A stretch of 33,481 nt of DNA, taken from IMG/VR virus record IMGVR_UViG_3300025770_000059, positions 1 through 33,481 of that record, one strand, 5' to 3'. The first letter of the stretch is position 1. Each line of letters opens with the position of its first letter. A program made the position numbers and the translations under genes. The notes below the pieces were generated by a model. The model was given only the letters and a program-made list of their open reading frames with translations. It did no database searches and was not told where the DNA came from. Shown piece by piece: positions 4,828-33,481 of this stretch. Origin of the DNA: a virus.

Positions 4828-4852
4828 TCTATCTGGGGCTTGCTCCGTCGTC

Positions 4853-4866
4853 GGTAGCCTCTCTAT
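4853..4866 (+). promoter_or_regulatory. Recurrent 14-base element, candidate phage promoter
   Basis: GGTAGCCTCTCTAT, 36 bases before the ATG at 4903 and just after a terminator-like hairpin, which is where a new transcript would be expected to start. Confidence 0.5.
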
Positions 4867-4902
4867 CGCTCCGGTAAGGTCAACAGATTCGGAGATCCTC
4901 TC

Positions 4903-5700: not shown

Positions 5701-5712
5701 CCGCAGCAAAGC

Positions 5713-5726
5713 GGTAGCCTTCCTAT
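5713..5726 (+). promoter_or_regulatory. Recurrent 14-base element, candidate phage promoter
   Basis: GGTAGCCTTCCTAT, identical to the copy at 32767-32780. It lies 30 bases before the ATG of the short frame at 5757 and 152 bases before the gene at 5879. Confidence 0.5.
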
Positions 5727-5756
5727 CGCTCCCGACAGGTATCAATCGGTACGCAG

Positions 5757-8800: not shown

Positions 8801-10099
8801 CAGTACGTCAATAAATGGCGTTTCGCTGCCGATGCCGAGTGGTCGTATGAAGGGCCTTTCGCTCCTTTACCTGACGAGGGCCGGGTCGCTGCTCGGTACT
8901 TGGAGGCCAAGCGTCAACTTTGGTGGCATGGCACGTCTGGGAAGAACTTGCGAAGCGTCTTGAAGCAGGGGTTGATTCCGACCGGGGATCTGGTCTTCGA
9001 TGTCGAGGTGGACCCCGACCGGGCTGGTGGGCGATCCATCAAGACCTTTGGAGGCATCTACTTCTCGTCTCAGTGGTTCACCGCGTACTCCTCTGCGGGG
9101 GGCGCGAATCGGAAGTCATTCGGAGTCATTTCGGGTCCAACGCCGTACTCTAGGGTCATCATTGGAGCCACGCTCGACAACCGCTCTCCCGGCATCATGC
9201 TCGATGAGGATGACATGCTGGGAGGGGTTGAGCGTCTGATGGGGCGGGCCTTCGATGACGTGTCCCGTAAGGTACGGCTTCCTGAAGATTTGGTGGATCG
9301 GTGGTCAGGGGGTGTGAAGGCAGGGTTCTACGGTAAGAGTCACCGCTTCTTGTTGGAGGATGCTGACTACGGCGACCTGCCTGCGAAGTACCTTGATCAT
9401 ATGGCGTCGAAGTACCCGAAGTTGGAAGGTCGGGTGAAGCGTCAACGGGGAGCATTGGAGTCCGCTATTCGGGATATGTTGGCGGGCTACTCGGTTCATC
9501 TTCTTGAGGTTTGGTATCACCGCTACAAGGATGACCAGACCAAGAAGATTCAGGGGTACATCGAAAGTGCTGGTCGTAGGGGTTCACCGGATCTGGTTCG
9601 TCAGCATGAAGACGAGTTGAAGCAGCACTTGGCCGACGAGCGGGAGGTCAAAGGGTCATTCCAGTTGCTCCAGAAGGCTACCAACCGTGTTGGCCAGATG
9701 ATGCGTGAAGCGACCGAGATGCCCGAGGGTGCTTGGAGGCACAACATTCGAGTCATGCGTCCGGTGACCTACCGAGGCAAGGACCGAATTCTGATGGTTG
9801 CTTCTATCACGGATAGGGACTCACAGGTCTGGAAGGATGCGGGTCACTTCTCATCCACCGCTGACATCATCTTCCACTACGGGGCGCAGCAGCGTAAGCC
9901 GTTCATCGACAAGTACGAGGATCGGGTGGGCGGCATCGCTCGTGTGCTCGATGCTTCGGGCAAGGTGCTGGAGATCATCGACAAGCGGGGACAGTTGGAG
10001 GAGCGTGGTTGGCCTACGGACCTCTGGGGTCCTGCTCCACAAGCCTACCGGGACGTTGCGGCTTCTGCTCTCACAACGGATTCTCCCTTCCGCCGTTAG
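5879..10099 (+). CDS. Multidomain effector-like protein with two ADP-ribosyltransferase-like domains
   Basis: 1406 residues; AGGAG lies four bases before the ATG. A ~196-residue module occurs twice: R13 (RYADLNPPLGYPGGSCHL) and R209 (RFADLAPPLGFPGGSCHL), each followed by S-x-H-x-Q-Y-R-M-D-x-R-G-I-T (H89, H283), which resembles DUF4258/RelE-like toxin folds. A very basic linker covers ~529-590. Domain at ~598-770: WYHGSP (H603), FFSPSKSFAKMYA and GYDAAYVTGDGVQNVFVV, the pattern of phage/PolyVal ADP-ribosyltransferases; the usual catalytic Glu position reads Gln748/Asn749. A SWIM-like zinc site follows (C924, C926, C967, H969). A second transferase-like domain starts at WWHGTSGKNL (H1017), then GGIYFS and MRPVTYRGKDRIL (~1293). 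T4 packages ADP-ribosyltransferases and ejects them with its DNA; this protein could act likewise on host proteins or nucleic acid. Substrate and activity are unknown. Base composition shifts along the gene, suggesting assembly from separate sources. Confidence 0.55.
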   Translation: MGRKPDIQRLLFRYADLNPPLGYPGGSCHLQDRIRQEVSNKRNQNLLLDHHLSGGDKKPNDRYERAIYDSIDEGPVKGTSFRRVLVSEHAQYRMDQRGITVPDLRSALRAFQKDWGKERSRGITSLTRLLQQPNEFHYDYDGIRFFMRPLKLWTPKDKKVDVWIRTLYDPSASPPRPVAPDECKNFPGWSKEYPEHGFDRLFPKRVAQRFADLAPPLGFPGGSCHLIERVHDEVNNPRLRDRLVDSVEEGQSLSNADASKVYSPERERGVSGKRLNKIILTSHVQYRMDLRGITVPEIRLALKQFAKAYLDERSRKSLQARWWDEAMAWGEEIKWEAPMGLVVVFTLPSQDTANIITAYWPGQSDPRPRDETECGFPSAGRVSALKMAPVPGVQTFVTEKSQKGLPTDSDREKQVVLPPGSATPGGEGREIGKFEFNTPDADSDIKPRTLGIPGEEYGHPSNDTYNTVSRRTMTAGSPLVSEPAYGESDAALPRGEEDEKTAYAKGDIRPSGTPGGQGGVPQREQEVAEKRKRKRRHEQNRGRDNQKALKRYHAKYKKKRQMVERKDKYRQNPRRYRRKTPQEYERPDKTAVVQRYATRLWYHGSPKRFEGFKTYEGHTFGKGPSEVPLFFSPSKSFAKMYATGPEGTIYAARLKWRKVFDGADLYRESRYWPPEYEDLTPEGKALYDDLADGKVFPGVDEDDLLDGYPSLWAQVLRMDYDIIEDAAFKWWLKKNGYDAAYVTGDGVQNVFVVSPSQVEIVEVEGRWDKKAGDVMLYDQHNPANNEIKQPGKDVNYRAEGPTTYSTEPDEKQGIVPGGRVPSRQLDNAPPASSRVIPDSMKQTLEDSYTKAAAATIPTILDNCGPAVTDRSKGIKVKRKRLSPSGMSTWSVQGSSGEVYTVRVKPIRKNKRYKIISKMPVKVSCSCQFWRWQGPEHWGKTNDFLYGKPRGTASVPVIRDPLGEHWACKHLIAVLQYVNKWRFAADAEWSYEGPFAPLPDEGRVAARYLEAKRQLWWHGTSGKNLRSVLKQGLIPTGDLVFDVEVDPDRAGGRSIKTFGGIYFSSQWFTAYSSAGGANRKSFGVISGPTPYSRVIIGATLDNRSPGIMLDEDDMLGGVERLMGRAFDDVSRKVRLPEDLVDRWSGGVKAGFYGKSHRFLLEDADYGDLPAKYLDHMASKYPKLEGRVKRQRGALESAIRDMLAGYSVHLLEVWYHRYKDDQTKKIQGYIESAGRRGSPDLVRQHEDELKQHLADEREVKGSFQLLQKATNRVGQMMREATEMPEGAWRHNIRVMRPVTYRGKDRILMVASITDRDSQVWKDAGHFSSTADIIFHYGAQQRKPFIDKYEDRVGGIARVLDASGKVLEIIDKRGQLEERGWPTDLWGPAPQAYRDVAASALTTDSPFRR

Positions 10100-12040: not shown

Positions 12041-12090
12041 TGGATGCCCTTACTTTGTCTATCCGGCCTTTTAGGTGGGAGTCTAACTGA
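12040..12090 (+). CDS. 16-residue mini-ORF chaining two fibre genes
   Basis: MDALTLSIRPFRWESN. Its ATG overlaps the upstream stop (TGATG, 12038-12042) and its own TGA overlaps the ATG of the giant gene (TGATG, 12088-12092). AGGAG (12027-12031) sits eight bases before its ATG. Ribosomes could pass from one fibre gene to the next through it. It may be a coupling device rather than a functional peptide; the downstream gene also has its own AGGTGGGAG (12073-12081). Confidence 0.42.
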   Translation: MDALTLSIRPFRWESN

Positions 12091-15000
12091 TGGCGACGGC
12101 AAGTATTCTCAGTCGGGTCACCGCACCTGTTGTCAAGATCGACCGCATCGGGATCAGCCGTGATGATCTTACGATCAACGATGTTGTCGAACTTGAGTCG
12201 GTAAACGTCGGCACGGCTTATCAGTGGAATATCGCTTTCAAGCCCGAGGACCAGTTAGGCACCCCTTCAACGGCGGTGTTCACCTCGACGGGCACAGAAC
12301 AGGCGATCATCCAGAACCCCGGCACGTTCACTGTTGACCTTGATGGGCCTTACCTGCTTCGGTTGGCTTACACGACTCCCCAGATCACGCTGAACACGGT
12401 CCTCACGGCGGGCGTCACGTTCACCATCAATGGGATCCTCCTGACGGCGGTGGCGGGCGCTCGGACTCCAGGTAGCGATGATTTCTCCGTTGCCAGCGGA
12501 ACCGCTGCGGGCATCGTCGCGGACATCGTGGCTGCGATCAACGACCCGCTCAATAGTTTTGTTGCCGCGAACCTCGCAGGAACGGATTCTTCTCCCAGCG
12601 TGGTCATCAGCCCGACGCTGGCGACCGTTCCTACGGGCGAGACGATTGGCATCTTTTATTCAGGAACCGCCTCAGATGTGACTATCGGGGATCTCGTCAC
12701 AGAGCAGTACGTCCGACTCCGTGCCTTGACGGCCTTCGGTGATCTCAAGCTGGTCGCAGCCGGTGAGCGGTACGACACTCTTCGGGTTCCGGTAGACGCG
12801 GAGCCTGACGGTTGGGCCGACAACCAGAATTACAACCTCAATCAGCTTCTTTCTCTCATTAGTTCCAACACACTCTCGACTGGAGTGGTCACTGTTGACC
12901 CGATCAACGGTGACTTCCAGACCATCCAAGCGGCGATGGATTACGCCAACGCACAGACACCCACGCTGGCCCAACAGTGGGTTGTGTTGGTTCGCCCCGG
13001 CATCTATGTCGAGGATTTGACCTTCTACCCGTGGGTTCATCTGTTCGGTTGGCCCGGTGGAGAGAAAACTCCGTTGGTCAAAGTGCAGAACGACACGGTG
13101 GCATCGCACAGTATTGCGTTGCCGGGTGTAGGCACCTCGTTGGTGCTCTGTGACATCTACTTTGAGCAGCCGGTCGTTTCCCCTAACCCAGCCTTTCTAC
13201 AGGTTGGTGTGGGGGATGTGCAGGTGTTCCGTTGCACTTTGGAGGCACAGGGCAACACAGGTGAGGTTTGGTCTACCTCTGGTCCTACCACCTTCACGCG
13301 GTGTACGATCAATGGGAACGGTGTCAACCCAACTGACTATGCCCTTCGAGTCTCCTCTGGGTCGTTCACGATCTTGGACCACACTACAGTCTTGGGTCAA
13401 TCATGCTTGATTTTGGAGGAGGGTGCGGGGATCTATGTGAGAGATTCCCGGTTCTCTGCCAGCGGCACATATGCGTTAAACAGCCTTGGTTACAACGCAT
13501 CGCTTAACTACACCCTCGTTACAGGGTTGATTGCGGGCAACCCTGCTGGAACCGGAACGGCAGGCGATTTGATCTTCACGATCAAATGGTGCGAGATTGG
13601 TAATCTGGCCATTGATGGTCAGAACGTGGTTGGTTCAGCGCGGGCCGATCTCGGAGCGACCTCTCATGGCACGCTTACTAATATCAATGGTGCTCTACTT
13701 TCTGCTACGGTTCCAGCAGACACCATTTTGTATGATCCTACGGTTTCGGGCCTCTCAGCGACCAATGTGCAGGATGCCATTGACGAGGTGTACGCTTACG
13801 CACAGCTTGTTCGCACGTTGGATGATGCGTATGACGGCGGCATCGTCGGTACGGGTTCGGGTCGGACCATCATCGCTGACCAAGGCGCTGTTCAGATCGT
13901 AGATGCTGCGGCTCCCTCTGACCCTATTCCTCCAGGGAACACTGACGGGAACTTGGAAGTCGTGGGGTCCGTCAAGCTAGGGGCTTTGACCAAACCTGAG
14001 ATCACGGTTGATCCCAACCCGTTTGACAACGGGCCAACGATCCTCCTCGGCAAAGAAATCTGGGCCAATGACGCCCCGTTCGGGAGCACCGCGCTGATCC
14101 TCGGTGACGCGAGCGGGAACCCCACCTTTCACAACTACAACCTCCGTGTCGGGACCAAGGAAGCAGACGGAGGGAATCAAGTCGGTTCCGTATTCGTGCG
14201 GGCAGGTGACTCGCTCACCACTATCGACGCTGGAGCGGTGTACCTCCAAGGCGGCACGGCTACAGATGCAGGCGGTGGTGTAGGCGGTGACATCATCGTG
14301 GTCCCTGGTGAGACAGCGGCGGGTGGCGCACGGGCAATGGTCCTGGCCAATCCTCTTACGGCAACGTCCGCCACATTGACGGCGGCGGGAGCCTTCTCGG
14401 GTGCGGCGGTCGCAGGCACGCTCACTCTAGGCACAGAGACAGGTGCTATCACCGTCACCTTTGTTGGCGGCGAAGTTCTGGCAGCGGTCCATGCACTGTT
14501 TGACGCGACAGGCATCGTCACGGCAGCCGGTGATCCCATCGTCCTCACGACGGTGATGAAGGGTGGCACAGCCGAAGCATTCTTTCTGAATGAAACCCCG
14601 GCAGGAGTGGACGCCGCTCTCGGCACCTTCTCCGGGCAAGCGATGGTATCAGGCACTTGGCCGGATACTGTAGAGCTTGGAGCTTCCGCGCCGGGGACTT
14701 TTATCGTTGGCGTGAACGCTGCGAACCCGATGCTGTACGACACAGCCACAGGCAAACTCACCGTCCCTGGTCTGATTGATCCCACAGGCGTCATATTCGA
14801 CGAGGCGGGACAGCCTGCCACGGGAGCCGCCAAGGGAGCGGTCTTCGTTTCAGATGGTTCGGTTGGAGTCCAAAACGACCTCTACTACACGGATCAGGCA
14901 GGGGCGCTGGTCAACCTCTCTGCGGCAGCGGCGGGCGTGACGAATCATGCAGCCCTCACCAACCTCTCTTGGCTACTCTCGGCACACATCGGTGCCAATG

Positions 15001-18000
15001 GCTCCCTTGCGACCTTTGACGGAGCCACGGGAGCCGCGACCCTGCTTACAGGTGTCGCGCAAGGCGATCTGGCCTATTTCGACGGGACCGACTGGACACG
15101 TCTCGCTCCGGGTGCGGCGGGTCAACTTCTCCAAACCCAAGGCATAGGCGCGGATCCGATTTGGGCAGCGGGTGTTGGCACTGATGAACTGGTGAAAGTC
15201 ACCGCGAATGACACGACCCCTGGCTATCTCCTCGACAAGCTCATTACAGCCACCACTGGAGTCGCCTGGACCGAGATCAATAACGGAGCGGACGAAGACC
15301 TACGGTTGGACGTGTCCACCGCTTCCACGGCGGGTCAAGGGCTGATCGAGATCGCGACCCAAGCAGAGGTAGACGGGGGCGCGGACACCACACGGGCGGT
15401 GACTCCAGCGGCACTTGCCTCGGCTACCACAGTAATCAAGCCAGGGGATGCTCCGACAGGCGACCTCGGTGGAACGTATCCCAATCCGATGGTCACCGAT
15501 TTCACCATTGCAGGGGAGTCGCAGGGCAGCGTCCTCTACTTTAATGGTGTCAACTGGTCACAGCTTTCCCCCGGCGTAGTGGGTCAAGTGCTTCAAACCC
15601 AAGGGGTAGGCGCAAACCCCCTCTGGGCAGCGGGTGGTGCGGGGTCTTCTGATCATGCGACCCTGAGCAATATCCTTTGGACGGCTTCGGCTCATACAGG
15701 CACAGCGTCACGCATCGCAGCCTTCGATGGTGGTGGAGCCGCGTCCTACGTCCAAGTGGGAGTGGATGTACAGGCGTGGGACACAGACCTTGATGCTCTT
15801 GCGGCCCTCGCAACTACCGGACTTCTTGTTCGCACGGGAGCCGGAACCGCAACGACCCGAAGCATCGTTCAACCAGCGGCAGGTATCACCGTCACGAATG
15901 CGAACGGTGTAGCAGGTGATCCCACATTGGCTCTTGCTGATGATCTCGCTGCTCTGGAAGCCCTTGCAGGTACAGGCATCGCAGTACGAACGGCGGCAAA
16001 CACTTGGGCGGAGCGGACCCTCACAGGCACGCTCAACCGAATCACGGTCACGAATGGAGACGGCGTTGCAGGCAACCCGACTCTTGATGTGGGTTCCAAC
16101 GTCCTTGTCAGCGGTGACGCCGCAGGGGGTGACCTTAGCGGAACCTTCCCCAACCCCACGGTCACTGATCTCACGCTCACGAGTGAAGCCCAAGGCACAC
16201 TCGTGTACTTCAGTGGCACAAACTGGGTGGTGTTGCCCGTAGGCATCAACGGCCAGCTTCTCCAGACTCAGGGGGCTGGAGCCAATCCACAGTGGGTGAC
16301 GAGCAGCGCGACGGATGAACTGGTCAAGGTCACGGCCAACGACACAACTCCTGGCTACCTCTTCGACAAACTGACGACAGCCACGACCGGGATCGCCTGG
16401 ACCGAGATCAATGACGGGGCTGACGAAGACCTTCGCCTCGACATTGACTCCGCGACGGCGGGCGGTCAAGGTCTGATAGAGCTTGCCACCCAACTAGAGG
16501 TGGACACCGGCACGGACACCACTCGTGCGATCGTGCCCTCGACCCTCGCTGGGTCTGTTCTTGCGGGCGATGTAACTGCGAACAACGCCAAGGTCACCAA
16601 CGCGACTCACACGGGCGATGTGATCGGGGCCACCGTCCTGACCATTGACGCCAACAAAGTCCTGAACACCATGCTGGTCGATATGGCATCGGCCCGGTTC
16701 AAAGGCCGTGTCACAGCAGGCGTGGGGGATCCCGAAGACCTGACTGGCACGCAGGCGACAACACTACTCGACACCTTCACCTCGGCCCTCCAGGGCGTCG
16801 TACCTGCGAGCGGGGGTGTCGCTACGGACTTCTTGAGTGCAGATGGCACCTGGGCCGTACCAGCGGGCAGCGGCGGCGTCACGAATACCGTAGTCGGCAG
16901 CCTTGGCATCACGAATGTCGGGACCAATACCAATGCCGACCTCGCTCCTACCTACGGCGCGGTCGCCAGCACGATCACCGAAGGCAACGACGCACGGCTG
17001 TCCGATGCGCGGGTACCCACGGGCGCAGCGGGCGGTGACCTGGGAGGCACCTACCCGAATCCAACGGTGGACGATGGCGCTGACGGCACGGCCATCCACG
17101 ACAACATCGCGGGGGAGATCCTAGCGGTCACCCTGAAGGCGGTCCCGGTTAGTGCTGACGTGCTGTTGATCGAGGACTCGGCAGACGCGAACAACAAGAA
17201 GCGAATCACGGTCGGCACACTCCCCACGGGCGGTGGTGGCGAGGCGAATACAGCCTCCAACGTAGGCACGGCTGGCGTTGGTCTATTCAAGCAGAAGACA
17301 GGAATAGACCTAGAGTTCAAGAAGGTCAACGCAGGGTCTACCAAGGTCACGATCACCGACGACGTTGGCAATGACGAGGTTGATGTCGATGTAGTCGATG
17401 CCTCGCTTACACAAGCGGGGGCCATTGAGCTTGCCACCCAACTAGAGGTGGACACCGGCACCGACACTACGCGGGCCATTGTCCCTTCGACACTGGCGGG
17501 AAGCACTCTCGCAAGCAACGTAACGGCCAATAACGCCAAGATCACGAATGCCACTCATACGGGCGACGTGACGGGAGCTACGGCGCTGACCATCACCGCT
17601 GACGCGGTGACCAACGCCATGTTGGCCAACGTAGCTACGGCTACCATCAAGGGTCGAGTGACAGCGGCGACCGGCGACCCCGAAGACCTGACCGGCACAC
17701 AGGCCACCACGCTGCTTGATACCTTCACGAGCGCCTTGCAAGGCGTCGTACCAGCCAGCGGCGGTGTGGCCACTGACTTCCTAAGTGCAGATGGTACTTG
17801 GAGTGTCCCCCCTGGAGGCGGTGGTCAGACGAATACCGTAGTCGGCACCCTCGGCATCACGAATGTCGGCACCAACGTAGACGCTGACCTTGCGCCCACC
17901 TATGGCACGACGGCGAGCACCATTACCGAAGGCAACGACGCGAGGTTGTCGGACGCAAGAACTCCAACGGCTCACGCAGCCTCGCACCAGGACGGCGGAA

Positions 18001-20702
18001 GCGACGAGATCGCTACCGCAACCCCCGCAGCCGCAGCTATCCCGAAGGCTGACGTAAGCGGCACCCTGGACGCTTGGATTTCTGCGGCCTCCGCTACGAC
18101 GGCTGGGATCATGGAGACGGCAACAGCCGTCGAGGTAGACACCGGCACCGATGCAACTCGCGCTGTGTCTCCCCTCTCTCTGGCAGGCTCCACCCTAGCG
18201 GGCGACGTAACGGCCAATAACGCCAAGATCACGAATGCCACGCACACGGGCGACGTGACGGGGGCCACAGCTTTAACCATCACCGCTGACGCGGTGACCA
18301 ACGCCATGTTGGCCAACGTAGCCACCGCGACATTTAAGGGGCGGGTGACAGCCGCGACAGGCGACCCCGAAGACCTAACGGGTACGCAAGCGACCACGCT
18401 GCTTGATACCTTCACGACAGCCCTGCAAGGCGTTGTTCCTGCAAGTGGTGGTGTCGCCACTGACTTCTTGAGTGCTGACGGAACTTGGAGTGTTCCTGCG
18501 GGCGGCGGTGGCGCGATCGACACGGGCAATACCTTGTGGGTTGATTCGGTCTTCGGCTCCGATCCGGGTACAAGCGATCGTCAGGACCTTCCGTGGGCGA
18601 CGATCGGCGCTGCCATCGCAGCAGCGGTGAGCGGTGACACGATCATGGTTCGACCCGGCACCTATGCGGAGGAGGGGCTTGCCCCGCCTGGCGGTGTATC
18701 TCTGCGGAGTCAGGGCGGTTGGCAGACGACGTTCATCGGGTTCACCGCAGGACGTACTGCGGACCTGATCACCCTCGACGACGAGGTGTCGATCCAGGGG
18801 TTCACCTTGTACGTCTCAGCGTCAGCGTCATTCGCGGCGGTGGCGTATTCGGGCGGCGGCGGGAGCAACACTGCGGCGATGTACGAGATTCGTTTTCTCG
18901 GCGACGGACTGACAGGCGTAGGCATCGGCATCAGCAAGACCGGGATAGGCAAGATCATCGGCGCTGAGATCCGCTACGACAATGGCGGCATCGGTATAGG
19001 GATGCAGTCGTCGGGCGGGGCCATCGCGCTGGAGGGCATCCACTACCCAGAGGGGGCTGGCACGTTTGCAACAGCAGCCAAGGTGACCGGTACGGGTCGG
19101 CTTCAGCTTGCCGATTTCAACGTAGGCAACCCAAGTATCGTTGACACTTTCGAGGTGGGTGGCGGCACCCTGCTCGTGTATGGAGTCAACGTATTCAGCG
19201 CGCAGAATATCGTTCACATGACCGCAGACGGCACTTTCATCGGCCTATATGGCGGCAAGATGGAGGGCACGGTTGACTTCCTGCTCGACCCGGCTGTCAC
19301 TTGGACGAGCGCAACGACGATGCAAGTGACGGCAGCGCACCAGGCCAACTATTCGTTTCCACCGACAGGCGTTAATGTCGAGTTTGAACTGGCGTTCTTC
19401 CAAGAAAAGACCCCCACACACCAGGCGTCGTTTTCGGTGCTCGCTCAGGGCGTCAGTTTCGGCTTCCCAGAGCTTGGGGCCATCACACATATCGGGCGAG
19501 GCAAGGCGTATGTGGGCGGGATGGCAGTATGGACTACCGACAACACGGCTCTGCCTGCCAGCGACGGGGCCACACTCACCGACGTATCCGCGACAGCGGC
19601 GAGCCTATCGGGCAGCACCTTCACGTTCCAGGGGTTGCCTGCGGCTTCGGTGGGGACAAGCATCATTTTCACCACGCTGCGTGTAGACGCTGCGGGAGTA
19701 GCCCTGCCATTCTGGGGTGTGCAACTGAAGCAGGCAGTCGCAGCGGGCGGAGGCACCTATGTATTCGAGGTTCGGACTGCGGCAAACACCTGGGTTGAGG
19801 TGGACTTTCAAGCGGTCGCAGTTGAGCTAGACTCCCGGTATTCAGCCGACGTGTTCTTGCGCCCAAACTCGGACGAGAACCTGCGAATGGGTGTGTACGG
19901 TGGCGACCCTGACCCGCTACTGCCTGACGGCACAGCATGGCCACCAACGACGATAGGCGTCATCGGCACAGGGCGATTCGCTCGCATCAGAGTCACGGTA
20001 GCGCCGACGGCTTTTCCTACATGGGAGAGGCTGGCGATAACCCCGTCGCATTCGATGTTTAATGGCGACGGTGAGCGGGTCGCACACGGGCTTGCAATGT
20101 GGCGCAAGACCATCGCAGCGGGCGGCAATGTCTTCGGCGAGTCGGGCGGCGTTGGCAATGCGAGCAAGCCGGTGGGCAGCGGTGGTGGAACCACAGGTTG
20201 GAACCACAGTATGCCGAACTCACGGATCGATAATCCGGGCAACGCGATCTATTTCCAGCAAGGCATCCCAGAGGGAATCTGCACCGCGTACCCGCTACAA
20301 GTGGCGATGGTCTACACCATGCGAGCGGGTGGCGGCACTGTGACCACAGCACCCGTCGGAATCTTGAGTCTGATCCCGGTCCAGGTGAGCGGTACGCTGG
20401 TGGCCGATCCGAGCGGCGGGCTGGTTCCGGTGGCCAGGGCCTACACAGCCACCGAGACGCTGATCGCCAAGCCAGCGCAGACGGACACGGAGAATCTCGA
20501 CGGCGGGGCCACCCTGCCAGCAAACCTGGAAGACAAGGCGCTTCGTACCGAGTTCGGGCCATTCTCGATTCAGGGATATTACGAGGGCGATCTGTTTTTC
20601 GTCCGTTTTGAAATGGACGCCGAAGGCACGCCAGCGCAGGACGTAGAGGTATTCTCGATGATCATATCTGGGGTAGCATTCAGCGAAGGAGGGCCGCTCT
20701 AA
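12090..20702 (+). CDS. Giant modular tail fibre protein
   Basis: 2870 residues; ATG start eight bases after GGGAG. Residues ~15-255 match the N-terminal domain of the preceding gene but carry a ~90-residue insertion (about 113-205). Residues ~268-520 look like a parallel beta-helix (GDFQTIQAAMDYA, VVLVRPGIYVEDLTF), followed by NVQDAIDEV. A long repetitive shaft follows with recurring units: LIDPTGVIFDEAG (~895), ELVKVTANDTTPGYL twice (nt 15183 and 16314), and a ~130-residue unit ending TFTSALQGVVPASGGVA and DFLSADGTW three times. A second beta-helix (~2150-2430; LPWATIGAAIAAAVSG, IMVRPGTYAEEG) and a ~430-residue beta-rich C-terminus complete it. Expected role: host recognition at the tail, with beta-helices able to bind or cut polysaccharide; no active site was identified. 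Its stop overlaps the next start (TAATG). Confidence 0.68.
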   Translation: MATASILSRVTAPVVKIDRIGISRDDLTINDVVELESVNVGTAYQWNIAFKPEDQLGTPSTAVFTSTGTEQAIIQNPGTFTVDLDGPYLLRLAYTTPQITLNTVLTAGVTFTINGILLTAVAGARTPGSDDFSVASGTAAGIVADIVAAINDPLNSFVAANLAGTDSSPSVVISPTLATVPTGETIGIFYSGTASDVTIGDLVTEQYVRLRALTAFGDLKLVAAGERYDTLRVPVDAEPDGWADNQNYNLNQLLSLISSNTLSTGVVTVDPINGDFQTIQAAMDYANAQTPTLAQQWVVLVRPGIYVEDLTFYPWVHLFGWPGGEKTPLVKVQNDTVASHSIALPGVGTSLVLCDIYFEQPVVSPNPAFLQVGVGDVQVFRCTLEAQGNTGEVWSTSGPTTFTRCTINGNGVNPTDYALRVSSGSFTILDHTTVLGQSCLILEEGAGIYVRDSRFSASGTYALNSLGYNASLNYTLVTGLIAGNPAGTGTAGDLIFTIKWCEIGNLAIDGQNVVGSARADLGATSHGTLTNINGALLSATVPADTILYDPTVSGLSATNVQDAIDEVYAYAQLVRTLDDAYDGGIVGTGSGRTIIADQGAVQIVDAAAPSDPIPPGNTDGNLEVVGSVKLGALTKPEITVDPNPFDNGPTILLGKEIWANDAPFGSTALILGDASGNPTFHNYNLRVGTKEADGGNQVGSVFVRAGDSLTTIDAGAVYLQGGTATDAGGGVGGDIIVVPGETAAGGARAMVLANPLTATSATLTAAGAFSGAAVAGTLTLGTETGAITVTFVGGEVLAAVHALFDATGIVTAAGDPIVLTTVMKGGTAEAFFLNETPAGVDAALGTFSGQAMVSGTWPDTVELGASAPGTFIVGVNAANPMLYDTATGKLTVPGLIDPTGVIFDEAGQPATGAAKGAVFVSDGSVGVQNDLYYTDQAGALVNLSAAAAGVTNHAALTNLSWLLSAHIGANGSLATFDGATGAATLLTGVAQGDLAYFDGTDWTRLAPGAAGQLLQTQGIGADPIWAAGVGTDELVKVTANDTTPGYLLDKLITATTGVAWTEINNGADEDLRLDVSTASTAGQGLIEIATQAEVDGGADTTRAVTPAALASATTVIKPGDAPTGDLGGTYPNPMVTDFTIAGESQGSVLYFNGVNWSQLSPGVVGQVLQTQGVGANPLWAAGGAGSSDHATLSNILWTASAHTGTASRIAAFDGGGAASYVQVGVDVQAWDTDLDALAALATTGLLVRTGAGTATTRSIVQPAAGITVTNANGVAGDPTLALADDLAALEALAGTGIAVRTAANTWAERTLTGTLNRITVTNGDGVAGNPTLDVGSNVLVSGDAAGGDLSGTFPNPTVTDLTLTSEAQGTLVYFSGTNWVVLPVGINGQLLQTQGAGANPQWVTSSATDELVKVTANDTTPGYLFDKLTTATTGIAWTEINDGADEDLRLDIDSATAGGQGLIELATQLEVDTGTDTTRAIVPSTLAGSVLAGDVTANNAKVTNATHTGDVIGATVLTIDANKVLNTMLVDMASARFKGRVTAGVGDPEDLTGTQATTLLDTFTSALQGVVPASGGVATDFLSADGTWAVPAGSGGVTNTVVGSLGITNVGTNTNADLAPTYGAVASTITEGNDARLSDARVPTGAAGGDLGGTYPNPTVDDGADGTAIHDNIAGEILAVTLKAVPVSADVLLIEDSADANNKKRITVGTLPTGGGGEANTASNVGTAGVGLFKQKTGIDLEFKKVNAGSTKVTITDDVGNDEVDVDVVDASLTQAGAIELATQLEVDTGTDTTRAIVPSTLAGSTLASNVTANNAKITNATHTGDVTGATALTITADAVTNAMLANVATATIKGRVTAATGDPEDLTGTQATTLLDTFTSALQGVVPASGGVATDFLSADGTWSVPPGGGGQTNTVVGTLGITNVGTNVDADLAPTYGTTASTITEGNDARLSDARTPTAHAASHQDGGSDEIATATPAAAAIPKADVSGTLDAWISAASATTAGIMETATAVEVDTGTDATRAVSPLSLAGSTLAGDVTANNAKITNATHTGDVTGATALTITADAVTNAMLANVATATFKGRVTAATGDPEDLTGTQATTLLDTFTTALQGVVPASGGVATDFLSADGTWSVPAGGGGAIDTGNTLWVDSVFGSDPGTSDRQDLPWATIGAAIAAAVSGDTIMVRPGTYAEEGLAPPGGVSLRSQGGWQTTFIGFTAGRTADLITLDDEVSIQGFTLYVSASASFAAVAYSGGGGSNTAAMYEIRFLGDGLTGVGIGISKTGIGKIIGAEIRYDNGGIGIGMQSSGGAIALEGIHYPEGAGTFATAAKVTGTGRLQLADFNVGNPSIVDTFEVGGGTLLVYGVNVFSAQNIVHMTADGTFIGLYGGKMEGTVDFLLDPAVTWTSATTMQVTAAHQANYSFPPTGVNVEFELAFFQEKTPTHQASFSVLAQGVSFGFPELGAITHIGRGKAYVGGMAVWTTDNTALPASDGATLTDVSATAASLSGSTFTFQGLPAASVGTSIIFTTLRVDAAGVALPFWGVQLKQAVAAGGGTYVFEVRTAANTWVEVDFQAVAVELDSRYSADVFLRPNSDENLRMGVYGGDPDPLLPDGTAWPPTTIGVIGTGRFARIRVTVAPTAFPTWERLAITPSHSMFNGDGERVAHGLAMWRKTIAAGGNVFGESGGVGNASKPVGSGGGTTGWNHSMPNSRIDNPGNAIYFQQGIPEGICTAYPLQVAMVYTMRAGGGTVTTAPVGILSLIPVQVSGTLVADPSGGLVPVARAYTATETLIAKPAQTDTENLDGGATLPANLEDKALRTEFGPFSIQGYYEGDLFFVRFEMDAEGTPAQDVEVFSMIISGVAFSEGGPL
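16479..18505 (+). repeat. Three long shaft repeats in the giant fibre gene
   Basis: Units of about 380-390 bases start near 16479, 17427 and 18132. Units one and two open with the same 35 bases (starting GAGCTTGCCACCCAACTAGA). Units two and three share long exact stretches, for example 47 bases from 17589 and from 18276. All encode a V-D-T-G-T-D to S-A-D-G-T-W module. Confidence 0.8.
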
Positions 20703-26576: not shown

Positions 26577-29500
26577 TTGCCCGTCTATCTTCCCGGTCTG
26601 ACGTTCGGTGGCCTCGGTTACGGTGGCGCGTCTTACGGTTATTCGCCCTACGGTTCCGGGGTTTCGCCACGCCTTCCCGTCCCTGTCTCGGGTGGTTACG
26701 GAGGCGCTGCATACGGCTACGCCTCTTACGGGTCGGTAGACCTCACCCCACCGCAAGTCACAGGAGTCAACTCTCTCGGCGGCTACCGGGTGGAGGTGTT
26801 CTTTTCCGAGGCGATGGCCGATGACACTGATCTCATCGACCCGGCCAACTATGTCTTTGTAGACGCTTACGGCGTACCGATCACCGCCGTCTCGGTGGCA
26901 CAAGGCAATCCGTCGGGCCTCGGCTACTCGTCGGTCATCGTTACTCACACAGGATCAACGCTTGGCGGTCAGTACACGCTGACCATTAGTAATGTCACCG
27001 ACATCGCCGGGAACCCGATAGGACCCCCGCCCGCAAACTCGGCGGTGTTTTACGCGCTGGGGGATGAAGCGACGGCGACGGCGAGCCTCCCCGCGCCTGA
27101 CGACGGGCGCACGATACAACTCGACTTCGTGAACAGCTTTGGTGACGCTCAGGACATGCTCACCGAGGCGGATTTCTCGCCCGGTGTGGACAGCACCGCC
27201 TCCTATGAGATCACGACGACCTATCCCGTGGTTCCCACGCTGGGGTCGGCTACGCAAGACGCTGCGCTTCTTTCACGGGTGTTGCTCGATCTGACGCCAA
27301 TGACGAGCGCGGTTTATGACCTCACGCTCGGACCCTCGCTGGCGTTCACCTACGACGGCACGCTGCTCCCCGACGATGATCCCAACCTTACTGGCGTAGA
27401 GATCGGCACCGGGTCCAGTGTTGCTACCGCGAGCGATGGACTCCTGCTCACGAAGGCGGGCGGCGTCCAGTACGGGTGGTCCTTCGGGGACGACACGGGG
27501 CGTATGATCCCCGGTACGACCTACCGGGTGGACTTCACCTTCGACCTGACATCCACGACCATCACCCCGGCTGTGTTCAACAGCACGCTCGCCACGATGT
27601 CCGTGTCGGACGGGGCTATCCAAGTTGACCTCACGCTCTCGGACTCGGCTGGGATCAAGATCATCACCATCGTCTCGGGTGCCTACTCCGCGACGGTGCT
27701 GGCTGCTTGGGCCACCGCAGGCGACCACACGGTGTCGCTGGTGCGGAACCAGAAGGGTGATTTCTACACGGTCCTGTTCGACGATGAGCCGCTGAATACC
27801 TTTGCCACGGCCAGCGCAACTGGACCCGCCGTGTACGGGTCGGGAGCCGCGTTCGTGTTCGGCACAACCCATGCGGTCAGCCTGTTCAAGTTGCGGGCGG
27901 TGAAGAACACGGCCTCCACAACGCTGTTCACAATCGCATGGAACTTCATTCACGGGGGGGCGACTTCCTTCACTGGTTCCACGGTCCTGACCGGCAACAA
28001 GATCACGACCCGGTACGGGCCGCTTGTACGGGGATGGGGTGACAACACCCCAGCCACCAAGGAGGACGTGGAGGTTCGGCTCGACGGCGGGGCGATTGAT
28101 CTCGCTGGCGTGAACCCCTACATCGGAGAAATCTATCCAGCCATCCCGATCCCGCTCGCTGTCGCTGGGACGTTCACGGTTGAGGTGGACTACATTTGGT
28201 TCATGAACCCTGCTATGGAAATGGTGGGGTTGAACACCCAAGGGCTGACGCTCAACACATGGGATCGCAGCCAAGGGCACACGGCTGGGGTTCCCTCCCC
28301 GATTCCAGACGGAGCTACCGGGACCGTCAAGACCAACCGTTTCCCGATGGGCGTAGCCCTCGGCCCGTACCGGCGCGAGTCCCCTAAGCAGATTGGCCAC
28401 AAGTACATCGGCTTCCAGAAGGGCGGTTACTCCGCTCTGCTCAACCAACCAACGACCCTACTTCTCAACCAGAACCCCCATGCAATCGGGGTGGGGGAAC
28501 TGAGTGCAGACGCTTTGCGGTCAAGTGGGGTGTTCAACGGCCAAACTACGCCCCCCAACGCTGAAACTCCGTGGACTCTCGACGGCGTAGACGGTGGTGG
28601 GTTGGTCGGTGACGGGACGTACCGGGTCGTGGATGCGTCCTCGGGTCCATACGGCATAGGCACGGCGGCGCTCTACACAAGGGGTCTGGACCTCTCTCTC
28701 GACATCCAGATCACGGACATCGCCCGTTTCCGCGTGCAGTCGTACACGGCTGACGGGGTGTTCACCGGGGCTGGATTCGGCTTTCATGACGGGGCACACC
28801 TCGTCGTGGTTGGCGCTCTCATTGTCGATGGGGTCCAGCACGTCGGCGTGCTCCTCGATGGGACCAAGACTCACTTGGAAGAAGGCTGGCAGATCGGTCC
28901 TGCGGTCGATGGGACGGCGACTGATACCACCACCATCGTCGTGTCCTACACGGAATTGCCTACGGGCATCGAGTCAGGCGACCGGTTCCGCATCCCCGAC
29001 GGACCCCAAGCGGGGGTCTACACTATCGAGGCGTGCGGGCTTTCGTTGACGGACGACGGCACCGAGGTCGAGATCACGTTCTCTCCGGCCTTGCCCACGG
29101 ACCCGAATATCTTGGGTGCCAGTGAGATCACGTTGCTCTTTGAGACGCCGTGGGACGAGAACCTGATTTCGTTCAGGGTCTATTCCCACTTCCCAACCGG
29201 CTCGGCCACCGTGTACCTCGGCGGCGGCATCTCCGGTCTGGTCGCTGACATCGCGGAGGTCGCGCCTTTCCCGGCCCAAACGGCTTTGCTTCTCCCAGCC
29301 ACGGAAAAGGGTGTCATGTTCTGGGGCAGTTTGTCTCGACGTGCAGAGTCCGTTTCCGTATGGGATCTGACGCAGTACCTTGCGGATCCGGTTCAGATTA
29401 CGAACACGGTGCAGGGCATCACGGCACTGACCGAGATGAACACGCTGCCCGAGGACGACCCGAACGACCCGTGGTATCGCGTTGGCAACTTCGGCACGGC

Positions 29501-32003
29501 ACAGGTAGACATCACAGGAGATCAGGTTCTCCTCAAGTCCACGTCGGGCAGCACAAGTATCCCGGTCGAGTTCACCTACGAACGAACGGAACCGTACTTG
29601 ACTCCGAAGGTCAGGATGGACGCCGAGGCCACCCTGCTTGTGGAGTCGGGCATCCTCGGTGCGGGCAACGCCTCGTACCGTTTGCGGGACACGGCCCGCG
29701 AGTCGCTGTTGACGACGCTCCACTACGTTGAGGATGGATCGCTTCGCCAGTTGATTCCGATACGACCCAATGTGTCCTTGTCGGGCTTGCAGACGCCCGA
29801 GGACGCCGGGTGGTCGGTTGGGTCGGGTAACACGGCCCCTGATCCCTTTGTTCGGGGTCAGACCCTTGAGATGTCCAAGACCTCCGCTCAAGAGGCATCG
29901 TGGCGTCAGTTAGTCGGAGCCGGAACGGTCGTCAATGATGAAGGCTTGATTCTGGAGTCACGGTTCTCGGTGCAGTCGGGAACCGTTGGTACGCGGGGCA
30001 TCGGCATAGGCATCGGCGGCTTCTGCGAAGTAGTCCCTGGCTTCCGTAGGGTCTTGTACCTGACCCTCGGGGCAGACCTCATCGAACTGCGAGATCAAGG
30101 GTTCGCGGTCATCCAGTCGTTCCCCTTCGTGTGGAACGATGGGGCGTCCCACACCTACCGTCTGCTTTGCGACCCGGTTGCAGACATTGTGGTGCTCGTC
30201 GTGGACGACACCATCATCGGGTCAACACCATTTACGGGCTTCAGCACGACAACCACACCCGAGTTCTTGGGTGGTCTTCTACTCCTTACCGGTGACGGCG
30301 AGTGTGAAGTCACGCTGGACTCCTTGAGTGCGACCCCGCTACGGGTCACGCCGATAGGTGCCCAGATCATTAACCGGACTTTCGGTGTTTACCTGCGGCG
30401 CACACCCACGGGTGGTGATCCCAACCCCAACGACATCGACTCGTACCGGATTCCACGAACGGATGGCACCAACACGCTCAACAGCAGTCTGTTTGCCATC
30501 CCTGAGCCGATGGATTGGACGGTGTTCTGTCGGGTCCGCATGTACCTCGACCCGAACTGGGGGTTTTCGGTCTACCGGCCCGACCTCCCTCTGCCTCCCG
30601 GCGCTCCCGGTACGGCACTCCCCTCGGAGACGACCGACCCGGCAGCGGCTTGGATCAACGTCGAGTACGGCGACCTCCCGGTGTACGACACCGATTTCCG
30701 AGGCACTGTAGCCTTTGGTGCGCTCGACCAGCGGGCGATCTCACAGACGCGGTGGGACTCGGTTCGCTACCGCATCCGGGGAGCACCGGACGGTTTCGGC
30801 ATCGCCCCTCAGAACATGGTGCTCAACCGTGCCTTCACCCTGACGAGCGGGGAGTTCAACCTCGACAACACGCCCGAGACGGCAACCATCGTCTCTCGGA
30901 CACCGTTCCTCGTCTACATCCCTGACTCGGCTATCTACGCCGACCGGGTGTTCGTGGTGCAGGTGGACGGGGTGGTGATTTCTCCGACGCTGTACCAGTT
31001 CGACAAGCTCACTCAAAACCTCCAGTTTGCATCTCCCGCTGCTCTGCCCTCGGCGCAGCATCCGGTCACGGTCACGTTCGCGGTCGGCAAGCCGGTCACG
31101 CAGGAGTACCTGTGCAGCCAGCCCCTTGAGGAGACGGTCACCGTCCTCAACGAAGGTACGCCTCCCGTCCCGTCCGACCTTGATCAGCCTTCCGAGCGCA
31201 CGGTTGAGGCGGGCAGCAAGATCAACGACCCGAACGACGTGCTGGATGATGCGGAGTCACTGGTCCTCAACGACCCTCTCCGCGTGGTCACATTCACGGA
31301 TGACGAGGACTCCATCTACGCGGACTTGCAGTTCTGCGAGACAGAGGATGGAGACAGCGTTCATATCACTTCGATTTGCGATGGTCCTGGTCCCGGCCAC
31401 GGCCTTGCTCATCTTGAGATCGACGGTCATTTCACGACGGATGTTCACACGGTGCCCGAAGGCCCTGCGGGTCCGTGGAAGGGTTCCCCTACAATCAAGG
31501 GGTCGGCGACTCATTTCGACCAATCAAAGATTTTGACGGCGAGCGGCGGATTCATCCTCGGCGGCAACCTTGGCCCCGGTACGGCGATCTTGTATCCGAA
31601 CCAACGTGGTCCGAGTGGGCAAGTGCCCGAAGGCCGCATGGGCATCAATCAGGATTTCGCTCTCCGATTGGAGGACGTGACTCCACGAGAGGACACGTTC
31701 GACATCCCCGGCTTGTTGAATGATGACGTGCCTCCAACAAGTGCCGACCCTACCACGGACCCCAACCCCGGCAATCCCGGTGCGGGTGGGGCCAACGGTA
31801 ATGGGGCAGCGGCCTATACGATGACTGATTACGCAGCAGTTACCGTATCCCGGCTAGGTCCGTGGGGCGGTTTGACCTCATTGGAACCCCGTTCGCTTCT
31901 AGCGGGGGGTAGTCAGTTGAACGGCGATGAGTTCATCCTTGAAGGCGGGCAGCAGATCCCCGCACCCACGGTAACGACTGGATTTATCCAGGCGGCCAAC
32001 TGA
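26577..32003 (+). CDS. Very large tail/baseplate-type virion protein
   Basis: 1808 residues; TTG start five bases after AGGAG (26567-26571). The N-terminus is glycine/tyrosine-rich (GGLGYGGASYGYSPYGSG, GGYGGAAYGYASYGS), then a bacterial Ig-like domain (~57-155: PPQVTGVNSLGGYRVEVFFS, DPANYVFVDAYG). Several laminin-G-like jelly rolls seem to follow (~275-450, ~690-830, ~1110-1265) with similar wording, such as YRVDFTFDLTSTT, GDHTVSLVRNQKGDFYTVLFD and SHTYRLLCDPVADIVVLVVD. The region ~1430-1530 ends in AYDTDFRG-type strands, and the C-terminal ~300 residues are acidic and proline/glycine-rich. No enzymatic motif was recognised. Size and build suggest a baseplate-peripheral or long-fibre component. 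Its last 20 bases overlap the convergent KOW gene. Domain limits are approximate. Confidence 0.55.
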   Translation: MPVYLPGLTFGGLGYGGASYGYSPYGSGVSPRLPVPVSGGYGGAAYGYASYGSVDLTPPQVTGVNSLGGYRVEVFFSEAMADDTDLIDPANYVFVDAYGVPITAVSVAQGNPSGLGYSSVIVTHTGSTLGGQYTLTISNVTDIAGNPIGPPPANSAVFYALGDEATATASLPAPDDGRTIQLDFVNSFGDAQDMLTEADFSPGVDSTASYEITTTYPVVPTLGSATQDAALLSRVLLDLTPMTSAVYDLTLGPSLAFTYDGTLLPDDDPNLTGVEIGTGSSVATASDGLLLTKAGGVQYGWSFGDDTGRMIPGTTYRVDFTFDLTSTTITPAVFNSTLATMSVSDGAIQVDLTLSDSAGIKIITIVSGAYSATVLAAWATAGDHTVSLVRNQKGDFYTVLFDDEPLNTFATASATGPAVYGSGAAFVFGTTHAVSLFKLRAVKNTASTTLFTIAWNFIHGGATSFTGSTVLTGNKITTRYGPLVRGWGDNTPATKEDVEVRLDGGAIDLAGVNPYIGEIYPAIPIPLAVAGTFTVEVDYIWFMNPAMEMVGLNTQGLTLNTWDRSQGHTAGVPSPIPDGATGTVKTNRFPMGVALGPYRRESPKQIGHKYIGFQKGGYSALLNQPTTLLLNQNPHAIGVGELSADALRSSGVFNGQTTPPNAETPWTLDGVDGGGLVGDGTYRVVDASSGPYGIGTAALYTRGLDLSLDIQITDIARFRVQSYTADGVFTGAGFGFHDGAHLVVVGALIVDGVQHVGVLLDGTKTHLEEGWQIGPAVDGTATDTTTIVVSYTELPTGIESGDRFRIPDGPQAGVYTIEACGLSLTDDGTEVEITFSPALPTDPNILGASEITLLFETPWDENLISFRVYSHFPTGSATVYLGGGISGLVADIAEVAPFPAQTALLLPATEKGVMFWGSLSRRAESVSVWDLTQYLADPVQITNTVQGITALTEMNTLPEDDPNDPWYRVGNFGTAQVDITGDQVLLKSTSGSTSIPVEFTYERTEPYLTPKVRMDAEATLLVESGILGAGNASYRLRDTARESLLTTLHYVEDGSLRQLIPIRPNVSLSGLQTPEDAGWSVGSGNTAPDPFVRGQTLEMSKTSAQEASWRQLVGAGTVVNDEGLILESRFSVQSGTVGTRGIGIGIGGFCEVVPGFRRVLYLTLGADLIELRDQGFAVIQSFPFVWNDGASHTYRLLCDPVADIVVLVVDDTIIGSTPFTGFSTTTTPEFLGGLLLLTGDGECEVTLDSLSATPLRVTPIGAQIINRTFGVYLRRTPTGGDPNPNDIDSYRIPRTDGTNTLNSSLFAIPEPMDWTVFCRVRMYLDPNWGFSVYRPDLPLPPGAPGTALPSETTDPAAAWINVEYGDLPVYDTDFRGTVAFGALDQRAISQTRWDSVRYRIRGAPDGFGIAPQNMVLNRAFTLTSGEFNLDNTPETATIVSRTPFLVYIPDSAIYADRVFVVQVDGVVISPTLYQFDKLTQNLQFASPAALPSAQHPVTVTFAVGKPVTQEYLCSQPLEETVTVLNEGTPPVPSDLDQPSERTVEAGSKINDPNDVLDDAESLVLNDPLRVVTFTDDEDSIYADLQFCETEDGDSVHITSICDGPGPGHGLAHLEIDGHFTTDVHTVPEGPAGPWKGSPTIKGSATHFDQSKILTASGGFILGGNLGPGTAILYPNQRGPSGQVPEGRMGINQDFALRLEDVTPREDTFDIPGLLNDDVPPTSADPTTDPNPGNPGAGGANGNGAAAYTMTDYAAVTVSRLGPWGGLTSLEPRSLLAGGSQLNGDEFILEGGQQIPAPTVTTGFIQAAN

Positions 32004-32709
32004 TGTTTTTGCGGTTCATTTCGGATATGAAATGAGAAGCAGTTTCCGCTGGCAGGTGTAAAAGAAAGGTGCCTTCTTTATCGTATGCCTCCCATTGGTT
32101 TTTGTTGGGTCCAGACTTAACTTGATGGATTTTAGACATGAGATTATCTTCCGGGTTGGGTTCTGCTTTTACGTCTTTGGCGTAAGGTACCCATTCGTCC
32201 GTGACTCGCGCATCCCGTGGGAGTGGGTGTGGGCGAAGCCGCGTTAGGTGAGGTTCCCGGATGTTTACCAGGGCTTTGGTGTATTCGACCCACGAGAAAC
32301 CAGTGCGGGGATAGTCGGGAAAGTTGCAACCGAGGACACCATCTTCAATAAGAACAACGTAACCCTCTTCATCTGTGTCTCGGTGCAGGATCAAATCCCC
32401 TATGGCAGGGACGAGGTGCCTGTTTTCTTGTCGTTGCAAGAGCGCACACCACCCTCCTTTAGGGTCTTGGTTGGGTTCTAAACCGGGCCAGATACGAGAT
32501 ACATGCTTACGAGAGACAGTTTCTAACAAGATGGTTTCGTTGGGGGACTCCTCTGGATTTTCGTCGATCTCAACTTTCGTTTCCTTTCCTGCATCCCAAA
32601 CTCTTTTGACAGTTCCACGAAGTCCTTTCTGTGGGCCTCGGGTGACATAGACCTCATCTCCTTTTTTGATCTTATTCAGCAGCACTTTTTTTGCTTCTTG
32701 TTCTTTCAT
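31984..32709 (-). CDS. KOW-domain protein, only reverse-strand gene
   Basis: 241 residues; ATG at 32709, with AAGGA (reverse complement of 32717-32721) seven bases ahead. Residues ~14-48 are a KOW motif (IKKGDEVYVTRGPQKGLRGT, VKRVWDAG), the NusG/L24-type small beta-barrel that binds RNA or RNA polymerase-associated surfaces. No NusG N-terminal domain precedes it. The rest (GWCALLQRQENRHLVPAIGD, GYVVLIEDGVLGCNFPDYP, WVEYTKALVNI) is unrecognised and contains no membrane segment. It ends with a small ~45-residue domain (HQVKSGPNKNQWEAYDKEGT). The gene is more AT-rich than its neighbours and transcribed against them, converging on the 1808-residue gene. It may be an early or regulatory gene, or a later acquisition; an RNA or transcription role is only suggested by the KOW motif. 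Confidence 0.68.
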   Translation of the reverse strand: MKEQEAKKVLLNKIKKGDEVYVTRGPQKGLRGTVKRVWDAGKETKVEIDENPEESPNETILLETVSRKHVSRIWPGLEPNQDPKGGWCALLQRQENRHLVPAIGDLILHRDTDEEGYVVLIEDGVLGCNFPDYPRTGFSWVEYTKALVNIREPHLTRLRPHPLPRDARVTDEWVPYAKDVKAEPNPEDNLMSKIHQVKSGPNKNQWEAYDKEGTFLLHLPAETASHFISEMNRKNISWPPG

Positions 32710-32766
32710 CTGGCAGTCCTTCTGCTTGGTTTACCCGACAATGCTCCATACCTCCCCCCTCTTGTC

Positions 32767-32780
32767 GGTAGCCTTCCTAT
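32767..32780 (+). promoter_or_regulatory. Recurrent 14-base element, candidate phage promoter
   Basis: GGTAGCCTTCCTAT, identical to the copy at 5713-5726, 28 bases before the ATG at 32809. It sits between divergent genes. A 7-bp inverted repeat (CCGACAA 32735-32741 with TTGTCGG 32762-32768) touches its first bases. Confidence 0.52.
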
Positions 32781-32808
32781 TGTCCTCTGGTAGTCGGAGG
32801 TTCCATAC

Positions 32809-32949
32809 ATGGGATGCGCCTGTCGGAAGAAAACGAGGACCGCGACCTCGCAACAAATCAAAAAACCTGCCCCGGTTAGGGTTGGCAGGGCTGTCCCTCG
32901 TGTTCCCGTGACCAAACGCCTCCCCCAAGGGACTAGGGTACGCCGATGA
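32809..32949 (+). CDS. Small very basic protein with CxC N-terminus
   Basis: 46 residues starting MGCACRKK, with GGAGG (32796-32800) eight bases before the ATG and a recurrent upstream element 28 bases away. It has nine arginines and five lysines, no acidic residues, and two cysteines (C3, C5). It also has several prolines (KKPAPVRVGRAVPRVPVTKR), so it is likely unfolded and nucleic-acid binding, or a tail of a larger assembly. Small phage proteins opening with a CxC-basic motif are familiar, but no function is known to me. It is followed after 47 bases by the next structural gene, so probably shares its transcript. Confidence 0.58.
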   Translation: MGCACRKKTRTATSQQIKKPAPVRVGRAVPRVPVTKRLPQGTRVRR

Positions 32950-32996
32950 GACGAACCTTCTATCGGGTAGCGTACCCAGCGACGGAGATGTAGGCG

Positions 32997-33481
32997 ATGG
33001 CGATCCGAAACAAGTTTTTTCCAGGTTCCACCGTTTCCCGATACCTTCCTCCGGGGGAGCATTCGTGGGACGAGGCCGTTTATCAGAGCGGGAAGCCGGT
33101 TCTGGATGCTGAACTCAATCTCTCCCAAGAGGTTGGCCGTGAAATCAAGCGGTTAGTTCAGAACAACGAGACTCCTTCTGGGTTTCTTCGGGGACCCTCA
33201 CCGATCAACGTGTTGGCTGACTACGCCTTCCCGACTGTGGGTTCGCCTTCGTTTGTGGCAAACGCCTTCTACATGCAGAAGCGCACGGCCCTTGTGGCGA
33301 ACATGCCGGTCGTGGTCGAGTATTCCAACACCTCAATCACTGGACAAAGCCTTATCCAGTTGGATTCAGCCCCGGTCAACGGCGGCACCCCTCCTGACGT
33401 GAAGCGCACTGACTTCGTGTTTCTTGAGGTGTTCCGAGCGCAGGTAAGCAGTTCCCCTCATGCCAGCGGCACGATTACAGT
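32997..33481 (+). CDS. Virion structural protein, N-terminal part (cut by window end)
   Basis: 161 full codons are visible from ATG 32997; GGAG (32984-32987) is nine bases ahead, preceded by a GGGTA-GCG-TACCC hairpin (32965-32977). The start (NKFFPGSTVSRYLPPGEHSW, then YQSGKPVLDAELNLSQEVGR, FLRGPSPINVL) has the Q-x-G-K-P-x-L-D-x-E-L-N type motif seen near the N-terminus of large phage tail/baseplate proteins (DUF6519/DUF4815-like in flavour). The following residues are beta-rich. The frame stays open to the window end, so the gene is long. A structural role is likely from motif and context; exact identity is not. Confidence 0.55.
   Translation, partial: MAIRNKFFPGSTVSRYLPPGEHSWDEAVYQSGKPVLDAELNLSQEVGREIKRLVQNNETPSGFLRGPSPINVLADYAFPTVGSPSFVANAFYMQKRTALVANMPVVVEYSNTSITGQSLIQLDSAPVNGGTPPDVKRTDFVFLEVFRAQVSSSPHASGTIT

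Follow-up and report, generated by a model that had tools for sequence, protein, structure and literature searches.

Introduction

KOW barrels are central to the control of both transcription and translation. According to one account of NusG-type proteins, the NGN domain makes the contact with RNA polymerase, the KOW domain sets the regulatory partner, and the presence of several KOW domains is a feature of Spt5 (PMC7819879). Our limited search of the open literature found no paper on tandem KOW domains in a bacteriophage. Here, we analyze a KOW gene from a stretch of 33,481 bases that is a complete virus record (hereafter, the window), and compare it with its counterparts in related large phages.

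Results

An intact KOW gene on the reverse strand

The KOW gene is an intact open reading frame (ORF) at positions 31984-32709 on the reverse strand, which starts with ATG and encodes a product of 241 aa (P0001). The features of the locus are as follows.

26577..32003, plus strand: flanking large gene, 1808 aa, presumed structural; best-segment identity of 82, 65, and 63% in records L006, L007, and L008, respectively
31984..32709, minus strand: KOW gene, 241 aa; predicted KOW1 (~15-75), KOW-like barrel 2 (~101-150), low-confidence linker, and C-terminal module (~190-235)
31984..32004, minus strand: final six codons of the KOW ORF plus its stop codon, within the conserved 3' end of the plus-strand gene; putative junction scar
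32004..32764, no strand assigned: swapped cassette, without DNA homology to L006, L007, and L018, both flanks of which match
32766..32782, plus strand: promoter-like motif CGGTAG-N5-CTATNG from a motif search, heading the downstream late unit
32809..32949, plus strand: small basic protein MGCACRKK..., 46 aa, conserved ahead of the downstream late gene both here and in related records
32997..33481, plus strand: downstream late gene MAIRNKFFPG..., continuing past the window end

A preliminary description of this DNA had reported a reverse-strand KOW ORF that is more AT-rich and overlaps the largest downstream structural gene by 20 bases. Its coordinates, ATG start, and tail-to-tail overlap with the plus-strand ORF 26577-32003 (31984-32003) were all confirmed, the GC content is indeed lower (0.486, versus 0.614 in the adjoining 1808-aa gene), and the KOW motif was recovered by Pfam PF00467 at residues 16-37 (E 7e-7; 29.2 bits, above the curated threshold of 22.3). 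The account of the neighbor needs correction as to size and place: it ranks second after ORF 12090-20702 (2870 aa), and, read along the late strand, it precedes the KOW gene. Because its product matched no Pfam or PHROG family, the label "structural" is based on context.

When scored by a profile made without it, P0001 reached 74 bits (E 5.9e-21), so its gene is more than a chance ORF; the reverse-strand ORFs in our list that are longer all lie inside larger plus-strand ORFs and were taken as shadows. G001, a contig from this same phage (99.88% identity over 18,146 bases), extends the window upstream and ends near window position 18,260, short of the KOW gene. No tRNA was found in the window, an Rfam search of it gave no match at E ≤ 1, and named phages showed no DNA match to positions 1-25000. 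Elsewhere on the plus strand, 3443-4531 matches a ROS/MUCR zinc finger (E 2e-10) and, weakly, an HNH endonuclease, and 5879-10099 (1406 aa) weakly matches ART-PolyVal and PARP, in both cases under the cut-off; this group of phages also has WGR proteins.

The KOW gene lies in a cassette that differs as a unit among relatives

The sequence of P0001 alone retrieved no close relatives from viral contigs, phages, or plasmids, and relatives were reached via synteny, starting from the neighboring genes. The 1808-aa neighbor as query led to L006, L007, and L008, and the downstream late gene led to L016-L022; L022 shares only the downstream flank, since a homolog of the 1808-aa protein was not seen within 8 kb of upstream sequence. 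A profile search with alignment A4 detected a full-length KOW homolog in 10 of the 12 records; the exceptions were G001, where the site is not reached, and the 485-kb phage LR745208.1. Nine of these 10 homologs stand directly upstream of the same late gene, and some lie between the same two late genes and others beside the downstream one. In G005, the full homolog is located away from the island (at 96974-97750), and the island itself holds a short reverse ORF with the C-terminal module only. Further searches returned only three already-known relatives (A1 profile versus viral contigs), no match (A3 profile versus species genomes; the G005 homolog and one WGR-module protein versus named phages), or only weak single-KOW matches (L006 homolog versus phages).

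DNA homology with L006 (blastn) continues until 32005 and resumes from 32760; the corresponding positions are 32003 and 32765 for L007, and homology with L018 resumes from 32764. The segment bounded by the upstream gene's stop codon and the promoter-like motif thus differs as a unit. Its counterpart in L006 is a 3.4-kb island with its own KOW gene at its end, and the two KOW proteins share 34% (A1) or 31% (A2) identity, as against 82% in the upstream flank. The locus combines replacement between conserved flanks with a different base composition, two marks of an accessory cassette; among KOW genes, the GC offset is seen only in the window copy, the seven measured in relatives being like their own flanks. 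A chimeric assembly is unlikely from these alignments, because the flanks on either side match one and the same relative, and the family of the insert is the expected one.

Strand orientation varies at this site. The KOW gene is opposite to the structural genes in six of nine island records (the window, G006, G007, G010, G008, and G009) and co-directional with them in three (G002, G003, and G004); as G002/G003 and G007/G010 are near-identical pairs, this corresponds to five versus two of seven lineages. Neither strand nor overlap is therefore conserved. Because the end of the KOW ORF (31984-32004) falls within the part of the upstream gene that is homologous among relatives, the 20-base overlap is probably a junction scar of the cassette rather than a regulatory device. 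Sequence comparison shows in-place allele replacement and a variable strand, and it gives no support to the antisense design put forward in the preliminary description. These data advise caution in deducing antisense regulation from reverse-strand genes, as strand and overlap here seem to be results of cassette swapping.

Other island proteins were also noted. Those at L006 15591-17048, L007 16463-18205, and L008 16468-17418 have a common RRILAQEGLTKTA-like N-terminus, which resembles prohead-protease/capsid-targeting signals, and a WGR domain scores above cut-off in the protein at L006 16341-17045.

P0001 is predicted to contain two tandem KOW-like barrels

The structure model of P0001 was weak (pLDDT 60.7); a model with the L020 homolog placed first reached 74.6 and is the main source of the two-barrel picture. 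It comprises a barrel (residues 20-73), a helix, a second barrel (109-151), a low-confidence linker (154-195), and a C-terminal end of three strands and a helix (210-243). Consistently, profiles of the two barrels aligned with each other in hhalign (E 8e-7, probability 91.6), as against 0.5 and 0.2 for the control comparisons of each barrel with the C-terminal module. The models show P0001 as a predicted array in which a pair of tandem KOW-like barrels is joined by a linker to the C-terminal module, and the "unknown body" of the preliminary description resolves accordingly.

The best Foldseek matches in the PDB were RNA polymerase II elongation-complex chains (E 7e-6 for one of them), which we take to be Spt5/DSIF, and ribosomal KOW chains, with whole-model TM-scores of only ~0.2; these matches support the RNA/transcription-type domain named earlier. 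Using VIA-align, KOW1 gave Z scores of 9.3 to a ribosomal small-subunit chain, presumably eS4, and 8.4 to DSIF KOW6-KOW7 (5ohq; both 4ytl and 5ohq are named as Spt5/DSIF KOW domains), in rows that mainly cover residues 13-84 in the model of L020 and thus barely compare KOW2 and the C-terminal module with PDB folds. Viral fold matches were mostly uncharacterized proteins with low TM-scores, and a sequence-profile search of the PDB gave chance-level matches only.

The KOW motif of the window protein is of the standard type, and its relatives carry a GRKVP insertion; KOW1 of the five relatives tested matched no Pfam KOW family and fell below the PF00467 cut-off. With NCBIfam rplX, the equivalog model for ribosomal protein L24, P0001 scored 22.2 bits, far under the cut-off of 53.7. 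A PHROG "transcription antiterminator" match (E 0.0017) was confined to the KOW part. GRKV-type KOW domains joined to other N-terminal parts were also observed in other phage contexts (L035 5680-6165 and L034 5530-6273), the N-terminus of the L035 protein being, by eye, like those of L022 and L031.

The C-terminal module recurs in other phage proteins

The final 45 to 50 residues of the KOW proteins, a short module, recur as the C-terminus of other proteins in these phages, namely, WGR-like proteins (L067-L070 and L091), a DUF7448 protein (L071; E 2e-21), and a short protein in L018. Pfam WGR falls just below cut-off in four of the five WGR-like carriers and has no match in L067. A profile trained without KOW proteins detected the module pattern LPxPFxxIRxV...A..xxGxxxxxL in P0001 (E 1.8e-7). 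This profile, made from six non-KOW carriers, found the module in eight of nine KOW proteins, which include two near-identical pairs (E 1.6e-9 to 2.7e-6); the exception was L031 (E 0.34), and the best of 1800 shuffles reached E 5.4. The test is not fully independent, because the six training rows were first found by profiles containing KOW proteins; alignments A5, A6, and A7 were entered by hand from earlier search output. If the module is common to KOW, WGR, and DUF7448 proteins, it would offer a direct handle on the machine that these proteins serve.

A contig of this phage encodes a distinct NusG-like protein

NGN (PF02357) was not found in P0001 at E ≤ 1 or in a six-frame search of the window, and NCBIfam nusG covered only residues 3-48 of P0001 (13.6 versus 135.7 bits). 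Contig G001 of the same phage carries a separate NGN+KOW gene, in which NGN scores 17.2 to 18.1 bits (below cut-off) and KOW 23.6 bits (above cut-off); its relative in G003 is above the NGN cut-off. The NGN+KOW gene is followed by a Sigma70 region 4 gene, which it overlaps (L094 1294-2434, contig of this phage); the preceding gene may encode a clamp loader. Of 11 records searched, three had NGN; a search for RNA polymerase beta-type PF00562 in 11 records found none. Since NGN did not match P0001, and an NGN+KOW gene is present elsewhere in this phage, the antiterminator role suggested previously for the KOW gene is less likely and is disfavored.

A promoter-like motif heads the downstream unit

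CGGTAG-N5-CTATNG occurs three times in the window, always on the plus strand (4852-4868, 5712-5728, and 32766-32782). Allowing a variable gap, 51 instances were counted in 10 related records, some of them near-duplicates, versus 4 for a reversed control, and most of the 26 instances listed with flanks lie, by eye, tens of bases before a start codon. None of 10 KOW genes had the motif within 300 bases upstream, the best sites agreeing at 6 to 8 of 11 positions, like shuffles. The lack of the motif there is weak support for a KOW gene outside the late transcription unit and suggests that it is expressed separately. No sigma-70-like site was found for the KOW gene, and terminator-like matches were near chance (4 versus a mean of 2.1).

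The small MGCACRKK... protein had no Pfam match. A ribozyme-like hairpin near 32936-32980 was considered and rejected, Rfam being blank and the leader alignment putting the hairpin across the end of this small gene.

Discussion

Our preferred reading, held tentatively at a probability of about 0.45, is that P0001 is a swappable accessory adaptor: its KOW barrels would bind nucleic acid or nucleoprotein, and its module would dock on a phage partner that other proteins share. Its gene would be an accessory one, carried by a replaceable cassette that sits between two late genes in a group of large phages, probably outside the motif-driven late transcription unit, and the tail-to-tail overlap would be a by-product of the joining point. 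The KOW pair may bind RNA or DNA, or else a nucleoprotein machine (the ribosome or RNA polymerase), and the C-terminal module may dock the protein on a partner also used by WGR and DUF7448 proteins. KOW barrels can act in purely protein-protein roles, which counts against a nucleic-acid-binding adaptor. A bolder and quite doubtful extension is a plug-in system, in which one C-terminal docking module with interchangeable heads (tandem KOW, WGR, and DUF7448) would recruit domains that bind nucleic acid to one phage machine; the tandem-KOW protein would then be an Spt5-like factor without NGN, next to the separate phage NusG.

Three other readings draw on the same observations. The KOW pair could modify RNA polymerase elongation or transcription-translation coupling as an NGN-less, Spt5-like transcription factor, antitermination included, as the Foldseek matches to presumed Spt5/DSIF chains, the PHROG match over the KOW part, and the multiple KOW domains of Spt5 cited above would have it; we consider this unlikely, because NGN, the RNA-polymerase-binding part of NusG/Spt5, was not found in P0001, this phage encodes a separate NGN+KOW protein with a Sigma70 region 4 gene next to it, and KOW arrays are generic. 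A protein that is associated with the virion or internal to it and is delivered along with the DNA, its module serving as a packaging tag, would suit a gene that sits in the late cluster in nine records, co-directionally in three, among island neighbors whose RRILAQEGLTKTA-like N-terminus recalls capsid targeting. P0001 itself lacks such an N-terminus and has its module at the other end, and the opposite strand in six of nine records, the separate location in G005, and the missing late motif make this role slightly less likely still.

The least probable of the readings is a host-takeover or anti-defense gene in which selection by hosts drives the exchange of alleles. In-place swapping, strong divergence, foreign GC, and a variable, mixed-strand island would all fit such a gene, but the family is retained in 10 of 12 related records, steadier than expected for genes of this kind. 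PADLOC matched none of the five proteins tested; as its library models defense rather than counter-defense, this result says little on anti-defense. The preferred reading remains that of the swappable adaptor.

Comparison with known systems

P0001 resembles NusG/Spt5 in its KOW barrel and, like Spt5, has more than one linked KOW. It differs in that no NGN was found and in its phage-specific C-terminal module, with a separate NusG-like gene present in the phage. NusG/Spt5 proteins carry KOW in their C-terminal part; of the two KOW-like barrels predicted here, KOW1 is near the very N-terminus. The ribosomal KOW proteins L24 and eS4 share the KOW1 fold, as the small-subunit alignments indicate, but P0001 lies far under the rplX cut-off and has another length and architecture. 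About 50 residues of the KOW part of the L006 homolog resemble Mycobacterium phage Muddy gp36 and Gordonia phage Vine gp31 (E 0.006 to 0.2), a similarity confined to one KOW. Finally, the locus is reminiscent of "moron"-type phage cassettes, being a single gene of foreign GC swapped between conserved late genes; unlike in those cassettes, the same family here returns to the same place.
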